Assembly (NCBI RefSeq): GCF_015712165.1
Contig: NZ_JADPZX010000001.1
Location: 7,645,501-7,709,500, forward strand
Length of the DNA stretch: 64,000 nucleotides
Source: Streptomyces spinoverrucosus
GTDB taxonomy: Bacteria; Actinomycetota; Actinomycetes; Streptomycetales; Streptomycetaceae
Reading direction: 5' to 3'
Under the pieces are notes generated by a model. The model did no database searches and was not told the DNA's origin. It saw nothing but the letters and a program-made list of their open reading frames with translations. The position numbers and the translations under genes are program-made. This document shows positions 30,358-31,535 of this stretch, piece by piece; within the stretch, counting starts at the first letter, position 1; the number at the start of each line of letters is the position of its first letter.

Positions 30358-30363
30358 TAACCT
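30358..30363 (+). promoter_or_regulatory. -10 box for a leaderless mRNA
   Basis: TAACCT ends 6 bases before the ATG at 30370, the spacing expected when transcription starts at the start codon itself. No Shine-Dalgarno precedes this gene. Confidence 0.5.
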
Positions 30364-30369
30364 GGGGCG

Positions 30370-31122
30370 ATGCTCAAGGAAGTCATCGCAACCCGCTACA
30401 TCACGCCGCTGCGTGAGGGCGGCTCGCTGCCGGGACTCGTCGAGGCCGACGACTTCGGGACGTACGTGATCAAGTTCACCGGCGCGGGGCAGGGCCGCAA
30501 GACACTCGTCGCGGAGGTCGTCTGCGGTGAACTCGCCCGTCGGCTCGGTTTCCGCGTGCCCCGCCTGGTGACCCTCGACCTGGACCCGGTCCTCGGGCTC
30601 GGTGAACCCGACCAGCAGGTCCAGGAGCTGCTCAGGTCCAGCGGCGGCACCAACCTCGGCATGGACTTCCTCTCCGGCGCGCTCGGCTTCGACCCGCTCG
30701 CTTTCGCGGTGAGCCCCGAGGAAGCCGGGCGCATCGTCTGGTTCGACGCGCTGGTCAACAACGTCGACCGCTCCTGGCGCAACCCCAACCTGCTGATGTG
30801 GCAGGGCGAGCTGTGGCTCATCGACCATGGCGCCACCATGATCTGGCACCACAACTGGCCCGGCGCCGAGGCCTCCGCCGCCCGCCCGTACGACGCGTCC
30901 GACCACGCCCTGCGGCCGTTCGCGCCGGACGTCACCGCGGCCGCCGCGCTCGCGCCGCTGGTCACCGAGGAACTGCTGGCCGAGGTCACCGCCGAGATCC
31001 CCGACGCCTGGCTGACCGGCGAGCCCGGCTTCGACACCCCGGACGACCTGCGCCGGGCCTACGCGCGAGCGCTGCTCGCGCGCGCCGCAGTCGTCCACGA
31101 ACGCATCGAGGGGATCAAGTGA
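30370..31122 (+). CDS. HipA-like kinase-fold protein
   Basis: A 250-residue protein resembling the HipA kinase C-lobe. It has LVEADDFGTYVIKFTGAGQG near the N-terminus (ATP-grip-like, with a Lys), the catalytic-loop-like NNVDRSWRNPNLL (D133, N138) and LWLIDHGATM (D152), equivalent to the metal-binding Asp. HipA kinases phosphorylate translation factors such as GltX in toxin-antitoxin systems; this compact form lacks the HipA N-terminal domain and has no HipB antitoxin beside it. Its stop overlaps the start of a DUF3037 gene (GTGA), so the two are made together. The target is unknown. Confidence 0.85.
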   Translation: MLKEVIATRYITPLREGGSLPGLVEADDFGTYVIKFTGAGQGRKTLVAEVVCGELARRLGFRVPRLVTLDLDPVLGLGEPDQQVQELLRSSGGTNLGMDFLSGALGFDPLAFAVSPEEAGRIVWFDALVNNVDRSWRNPNLLMWQGELWLIDHGATMIWHHNWPGAEASAARPYDASDHALRPFAPDVTAAAALAPLVTEELLAEVTAEIPDAWLTGEPGFDTPDDLRRAYARALLARAAVVHERIEGIK

Positions 31123-31535
31123 GCGAGCGTCACATCACCCGGGCCGGCCAGGGCGGCGGCCGGGACGTCTTCGAGTACGCGCTGCTGCGGGTCGTACCAC
31201 GCGTCGAGCGCGGCGAGTGCATCAACGCGGGCGTGCTCGTGTACTGCCGGGCCAAGGCCTACGTCGGCGCCCGCACCCATCTGGACGAGGCGCGGCTGCT
31301 GGCCCTCGACCCGGACGCGGACGTGGCCGGCGTGCGTGCCGCGCTGCGCGCGGTGGAGGGCGTGTGCGAGGGAGGGGAAGCGGCCGGGCAGGCGGCGGGC
31401 GACGACGCCGGGCGGCGTTTCCGCTGGCTGATCGCGCCGCGCTCCACGGTCGTGCAGCCCGGGCCCGTGCACACCGGACTGACCGTCGATCCGGTGGCCG
31501 AGACCGAACGGCTGCTCGACCTGCTGGTGAGGTGA
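31119..31535 (+). CDS. DUF3037 protein, coupled to the HipA-like kinase
   Basis: A 138-residue protein of the DUF3037 family (FEYALLRVVPRVERGECINAG, VLVYCRAKAYVGARTHLDEARLLAL, FRWLIAPRSTVVQPGPVHTG). Function unknown. The GTG start overlaps the kinase stop, which implies translational coupling and a fixed ratio of the two proteins. DUF3037 proteins recurrently sit beside HipA-like kinases (recalled, not checked), so it may be a partner, substrate or antidote. It has no DNA-binding motif that would make it a classical antitoxin. Confidence 0.82.
   Translation: MSERHITRAGQGGGRDVFEYALLRVVPRVERGECINAGVLVYCRAKAYVGARTHLDEARLLALDPDADVAGVRAALRAVEGVCEGGEAAGQAAGDDAGRRFRWLIAPRSTVVQPGPVHTGLTVDPVAETERLLDLLVR

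Follow-up and report, generated by a model that had tools for sequence, protein, structure and literature searches.

A HipA-like kinase gene overlapping a short DUF3037 gene as a putative core regulatory pair in Streptomyces

In Streptomyces spinoverrucosus, a small HipA-like kinase gene overlaps the gene of a short DUF3037 protein, and the two genes are kept together at one chromosomal place in the Streptomyces regions that we compared. Our preferred reading, held tentatively and at a little under even confidence, is that of a kinase/anti-kinase pair working like HipAD, in which DUF3037 would restrain an active Ser/Thr kinase with a core regulatory or stress role. A kinase associated with DUF3037 is a known kind of toxin and restrainer, represented by PDC-M66, DS-6/HipAD and Retron-Sda1. 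What is new here is a short partner devoid of extension, a fixed chromosomal place, slow evolution and an apparently leaderless, putatively coupled expression. The features are the following, numbered along the window, that is, the whole stretch of 64,000 nucleotides that was analysed.

30358..30363, plus strand: TAACCT, a -10-like hexamer located 6 nt before the ATG, read from the sequence as a leaderless promoter candidate
30370..31122, plus strand: HipA_2 kinase (PF20613) of 250 aa, without HipA N-domain, ATG start
31119..31122, plus strand: GTGA stop/start overlap of the kinase and DUF3037 genes, read from the sequence
31119..31535, plus strand: DUF3037 protein (PF11236) of 138 aa, short form without C-terminal extension, GTG start

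The kinase ORF belongs to the Pfam HipA_2 family, with 56 bits for a cut-off of 27, and it gave 14.4 bits with the classical HipA_C family, short of the 30.5 cut-off. Its structure model aligned to HipA (4pu5) solely over HipA residues 145-429 and, because this alignment starts at residue 145, the kinase lacks the HipA N-subdomain. No HTH HipB gene was present among the neighbours of the window pair. The preliminary description of a HipA-like kinase deprived of both the N-domain and HipB was thus well founded. When the model was compared with known structures by VIA-align, both CtkA and PI4KII scored above HipA, and the fold is predicted to be that of a HipA/CtkA/PI4K-type protein kinase. CtkA, a kinase from Helicobacter pylori (PDB 3akk/3akl), shares 13% identity with the window kinase, and we know of no DUF3037 partner for it. 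The predicted active-site residues are K35, E49, D133, N138/N140, and D152. For the DUF3037 protein, the Pfam match reached 148.1 bits (cut-off 22.6), the domain covering residues 20-137, and residues R24, P27, E30, R31, E33, N36, and G38 were invariant. Its structure model had a pLDDT of 91.3, and no confident PDB fold match was found for it. Searches of the PDB with single sequences and with profiles of 75 and 79 sequences gave no sequence relative at E ≤ 0.1 for either protein.

The GTGA overlap with the DUF3037 gene had been noticed at the outset; its exact coordinates were confirmed and it turned out to be widely kept. Among 49 distinct Streptomyces loci, 47 have a 4-nt NTGA overlap, the two others having a 1-nt overlap and a 66-nt gap. 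In other actinobacteria and on plasmids, the genes overlap in 31 of 34 distinct loci (33 of 36 rows before two repeated loci were dropped), the rest comprising gaps of 1 and 33 nt and one ambiguous case. GTDB contigs were also scanned with a five-sequence DUF3037 profile, which gave at least 589 confirmed loci, and the best 80 were kept. Among these best loci, a same-strand kinase was found upstream at 79, the 80th match starting 70 bases from the contig end. In 78 of these 79 loci, the kinase frame ends 8-23 nt within the DUF3037 ORF (23 nt in 50 loci), and only a locus with an early stop in the kinase frame (L180) departs from this. In 61/79, the kinase stop coincides with or adjoins the [FY][EDQ]Y codons that open DUF3037. 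As the overlap is retained across the Streptomyces, the other actinobacterial and plasmid, and the GTDB loci, it does not result from chance, and we propose from its sequence that it couples the translation of the two genes.

The leaderless look of the mRNA, also pointed out in the preliminary description, was supported by the upstream regions of 41 distinct Streptomyces paired loci. At exactly the same 6-nt spacing from the start codon, a TANNNT motif was found in 25/41 and a TRRCCT motif in 31/41, and none of the 41 contained any of the Shine-Dalgarno-like motifs tried. A hexamer conserved in spacing together with the absence of such motifs argues for a kinase promoter that looks leaderless. 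A TGCAAGG motif precedes the kinase start at exactly -32 in 14 of the 41 regions, and 13 of these regions have no close TANNNT box. This motif possibly defines a second promoter class, read by another sigma factor.

We then looked at how strictly the two genes occur together. The source genome (8.85 Mb) contains one DUF3037 gene and two HipA_2 genes. Among 61 genomes of the same genus, DUF3037 was detected in 57 and HipA_2 in 60, and HipA_2 was directly upstream on the same strand in 56 of the 57 DUF3037 matches, the contig of the 57th being cut within the kinase gene. As for the four genomes without a DUF3037 match, one has an N-run just after the syntenic kinase, one a chimeric contig in which the kinase of the paired locus is fused to the second kinase locus, in another the contig edge truncates the kinase, and the last has neither gene. 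Of 296 genomes drawn from the phylum, 40 contain DUF3037, nine of them from the genus of the window, and all of the 41 matches were paired. The best 80 GTDB loci belong, under their tree names, to Cyanobacteriota, Pseudomonadota, Myxococcota, Chloroflexota, Acidobacteriota, Bacteroidota, Rhodothermota, Ignavibacteriota, Thermomicrobiota, and Actinomycetota, with two doubtful names, a 'Bacillus subtilis' contig falling within Stenotrophomonas and an 'Enhygromyxa' contig within Pseudoxanthomonas. Over 70 of 74 usable loci (four loci from single-member phyla or unassigned were omitted), the distance matrices of the kinase and of DUF3037 correlated with r = 0.69. When partners were shuffled within phyla, the mean r was 0.39 (sd 0.04) with a maximum of 0.49, and 0/1000 shuffles reached 0.69. 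Within phyla, r was 0.88 in Myxococcota, 0.81 in Bacteroidota, 0.68 in Pseudomonadota, and only 0.42 in Chloroflexota. The two genes, whose co-conservation was at stake in the preliminary description, are therefore strict overlapping pairs, and the catalytic residues are kept in 75/75 of the short-form kinases aligned. On a Leptolyngbya plasmid (L140, 7739-8411), an intact DUF3037 ORF follows a kinase of which just the last part is annotated, and the upstream DNA resembles by eye an inserted element. On a contig of genome G017 (L259), the N-terminal half of a paired-locus kinase is joined to the C-terminal half of a solo kinase, possibly by misassembly or by recombination between two paralogues.

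Such solo kinases form a second group. The other HipA_2 kinase of the source genome (C1:1343804-1344511; L001, L263) is a 304-aa protein with a C-terminal extension and is devoid of DUF3037; its neighbours, judged by eye only, are malate synthase-like and a SelT-like protein. In the 61 genus genomes, 25 of 81 HipA_2 matches were unpaired, or 21 once four broken or gapped loci were omitted. Nine solo kinases grouped together (100/100), apart from the paired Streptomyces copies, and the ten examined keep the catalytic residues. The existence of solo kinases implies that an adjacent DUF3037 is not required for every member, and DUF3037 could act in trans on them.

The genomic setting of the pair was studied in 12 Streptomyces regions of about 20 kb each. 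In the window, the neighbours are Rieske, isochorismatase, and two SDR genes, and in all of the 12 regions the pair lies upstream of the same two SDR genes. Comparison with five of these regions gave a dN/dS of 0.13-0.21 (kinase) and 0.12-0.20 (DUF3037); three neighbouring genes gave 0.12-0.34 once one misaligned value had been dropped, a range that includes both. The pair is under ordinary purifying selection, as judged from these sequences. In the best GTDB loci, no neighbour family was found in more than 7/79, and the 129 immediate neighbours in other phyla are mixed, with scattered PADLOC matches for which there is no background rate to compare. DUF3037 gave no tblastn match in 50,697 phage records and matched 6 of 72,556 plasmid records, one of them a record of 11.85 Mb. 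We infer that the short-form pair is a slowly evolving, mostly vertically kept core chromosomal module and not a mobile immune cassette.

The preliminary description had taken the pair for a candidate undescribed system. This has to be given up, since PADLOC PDC-M66, DS-6/HipAD, and the HipA/DUF3037 genes of Retron-Sda1 already exist. In the accessible text of PMC13092281, DS-6, renamed HipAD, is validated as a kinase together with a DUF3037-DUF1829 protein, and a catalytic mutation of the kinase abolishes defence, so that kinase activity is needed. AlphaFold3 predicts there binding between kinase and partner with an ipTM of 0.76-0.79, and a weaker contact of the partner with DNA. The window pair is alike in having two genes, a HipA-related kinase gene beside a DUF3037 gene, with a partner unlike HipB. 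In contrast, DS-6B joins DUF3037 to DUF1829 and is a predicted DNA binder according to the same paper, whereas the window DUF3037 has 138 aa and no extension. HipAD is usually found in the accessory genome or prophages, the same text citing Brenes and Laub 2025 for HipAD under a title on E. coli prophages, while the window pair belongs to the core chromosome, outside such a setting (57/61 genomes, 12/12 syntenic). In Retron-Sda1, PMC12548924 reports that the HipA-like/DUF3037 pair still protects against phage Bas51 when the retron parts are absent, that deletion of the kinase abolishes defence, and that deletion of DUF3037 is toxic; in that pair, the kinase is the toxin and DUF3037 the neutraliser, with a standalone defence. 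That pair differs by being embedded in a retron locus and by a DUF3037 protein whose C-terminal region resembles a retron DNA-binding protein, as described in the same paper. This paper also reports a strong association of DUF3037 with HipA-like genes and PADLOC PDC-M66. Both window proteins match the two models of this candidate system, judged without PADLOC's own cut-offs: PDC-M66A matched the kinase at 1.1e-18 (residues 1-163 to positions 9-179 of 270) and PDC-M66B matched DUF3037 at 5.2e-7, only over positions 4-128 of 281. Likeness to HipBA/HipBST is limited to the kinase fold and to the small size without N-subdomain 1, as HipT is described in the accessible portion of PMC10627512; in contrast, the window pair has no HipB, a DUF3037 partner that is not named HipS, and a weak HipA_C score. 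In the literature searched, which covers few subscription papers, no published experiment on a short-form pair was found.

Long-form relatives were met in viruses and prophages. Among 2.9 million viral contigs, a 13-sequence profile gave at least four DUF3037-like proteins, a search that depends on short exact patterns, so that further members may exist. All four genes overlap an upstream kinase-like ORF, and the partners are proteins of 271-307 aa made of DUF3037 and a C-terminal part. Each of the four pairs is recognised by PHROG 3162 (kinase) and 5137 (partner), as are the window kinase and DUF3037, at 3e-25 and 3.9e-7, respectively. A pattern scan of viral contigs returned 26 stretches, of which 20 have, by motif reading, an overlapping or adjacent upstream kinase-like ORF; several of these 20 are near-identical, four are on the contigs of L143-L146, and family models were run on some. 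Two of the 26 stretches were rejected as chance matches. In the last four, a DUF3037-like ORF has no kinase in view, and three of them (L233, L243, L245) carry the same protein, a 191-aa open frame, cut in L245, whose upstream kinase ORF is not in view; it could be a stray partner or a phage-carried inhibitor. In 5,426 E. coli genomes, a pair of this kind was found in one, with one of five DNA queries. In this prophage of strain ES2 (L265, 5709-7348), a kinase annotated as a hypothetical protein and a 272-aa DUF3037 protein overlap by 4 nt, with an XRE repressor gene on one side and gam/bet/exo genes on the other. Pairwise, the window kinase and the prophage kinase share 20% identity over 202 columns (E 0.01), and the sequence likeness of the two DUF3037 proteins is small as well. 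As Pfam gave no DUF1829 call in the seven long-form partners scanned (limits 0.1, 1e-4, and 0.5), this label rests on PMC13092281. A kinase tree was built from 113 rows, namely 88 paired short forms, 10 solo paralogues, and 15 viral kinases. One branch (100/96, length 2.59) has all 98 short-form and solo rows on one side. The short forms have short branches and group mostly by phylum, and the 15 viral kinases are long-branched, the joins among them being unsure because long branches meet there, as the tree program warned. The window copy belongs to the short-form group, without the C-terminal extension of the phage-borne form.

The restrainer reading starts from what was observed, namely the pairing, the overlap, the synteny of 12 regions, the catalytic residues, the predicted kinase fold, and the lack of a C-terminal extension. 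By analogy with the relatives, in which the kinase is needed for defence and loss of DUF3037 is toxic, DUF3037 is proposed to restrain the kinase. The short DUF3037 would bind the kinase directly and hold it in check, and coupled translation would make restrainer and kinase appear together. Once restraint is lifted, the kinase would phosphorylate Ser or Thr residues of a protein of the cell that most likely belongs to the translation machinery, and growth would slow down; any name given to this substrate is a guess. In Streptomyces and the other short-form lineages, the pair would belong to the core genome, be inherited mostly vertically, and serve in regulation or stress. The likeness to HipAD is limited by the extra C-terminal part of the published partners and by the great distance of the long forms. 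Since the DNA-touching extension predicted in HipAD is missing, the short form probably does without autoregulation and relies on coupled translation.

Another explanation, unlikely but deserving real weight, is that DUF3037 is not an antitoxin but an activating or substrate-presenting subunit, the pair being an ordinary constitutive protein-modification enzyme. It would agree with a pair that evolves slowly, belongs to the core genome, and is under ordinary purifying selection, the invariant DUF3037 residues from R24 to G38 would suit a ligand or substrate site, and the higher scores of CtkA and PI4KII over HipA point the same way. Against this, in the Retron-Sda1 relative loss of DUF3037 is toxic while toxicity upon loss of the kinase is not reported in the accessible text of PMC12548924, and the kinase gene comes first and overlaps its partner almost throughout.

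A toxin-antidote or defence function had been put forward for the pair. Published work on distant relatives speaks for it, and for this particular copy it was weakened. We consider it rather improbable that the pair is an active anti-phage (abortive infection) toxin-antitoxin of the source strain, a chromosomally fixed HipAD, although PDC-M66A and PDC-M66B both match, HipAD and Retron-Sda1 defend against phage in the texts cited, and the long-form pair of the E. coli prophage adjoins a repressor gene. The near-universal presence in the genus, at one syntenic place, argues against it, as do the ordinary dN/dS and the slow evolution compared with the long-branched viral forms. Furthermore, the PDC-M66B match is partial, and PADLOC at 1e-10 matched none of the 54 other gene-like ORFs of the window, chosen by base composition.

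Divergent copies of the pair were observed in three elfamycin-type biosynthetic clusters (L141, 7225-8366; L257; L258), with ccrA adjoining and a facT-like pump close by. In a plasmid of Streptomyces globosus, the divergent pair adjoins a crotonyl-CoA carboxylase/reductase gene, and the plasmid collection scores a nearby efflux gene as 97.5% identical to facT, an elfamycin pump. A 70%-identical DUF3037 was found in 2 of 392 genus genomes, both of which share the surroundings of the plasmid (ccrA 78%, pump 66%, methyltransferase 75-76%, panD 78-80%). Elfamycins act on EF-Tu. The retention of a kinase in the cluster of an EF-Tu inhibitor hints at EF-Tu as its possible substrate, and the cluster-borne copy is possibly linked to self-resistance or to EF-Tu. 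In PMC9361827, a table of the kirromycin and aurodox clusters lists KirHVI and KirHIV without a role next to kirN; these two may be a kinase/DUF3037 pair. A bolder scenario, which we regard as a long shot, would make the pair an ancient core regulator of translation, with a kinase acting on EF-Tu or another translation factor under the control of DUF3037. Prophage HipAD would be derived from it, and elfamycin producers would have recruited a divergent copy so that phospho-EF-Tu withstands their own drug.

Finally, a lipid or small-molecule substrate is very improbable: the PI4KII-like fold (PI4KII next after CtkA with VIA-align Z of 13-14, and among the best Foldseek matches) and the downstream SDRs, FabG-like in 12/12 Streptomyces regions and of the commonest Pfam family among immediate neighbours elsewhere (just 4/129), speak for it, but CtkA, Fam20C, actin-fragmin kinase, and HipA, all in the same VIA-align list, are protein kinases, SDR is a very large family, and neighbour families recur little among the best GTDB loci.

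If the chromosomal branch is a core regulator, as in the restrainer reading that we prefer, the label PDC-M66 may be wrong where it has been given in Streptomyces and other genomes, and since these models match a pair that is near-universal in the genus, counts of defence systems that use them may run too high. One could also ask by which route a housekeeping kinase with its restrainer turned into an immune toxin of prophages, or the reverse. Streptomyces, with a near-universal pair and tractable genetics, would be the place to find the natural substrate of the kinase, for which the copies in elfamycin clusters suggest EF-Tu as a concrete first candidate.
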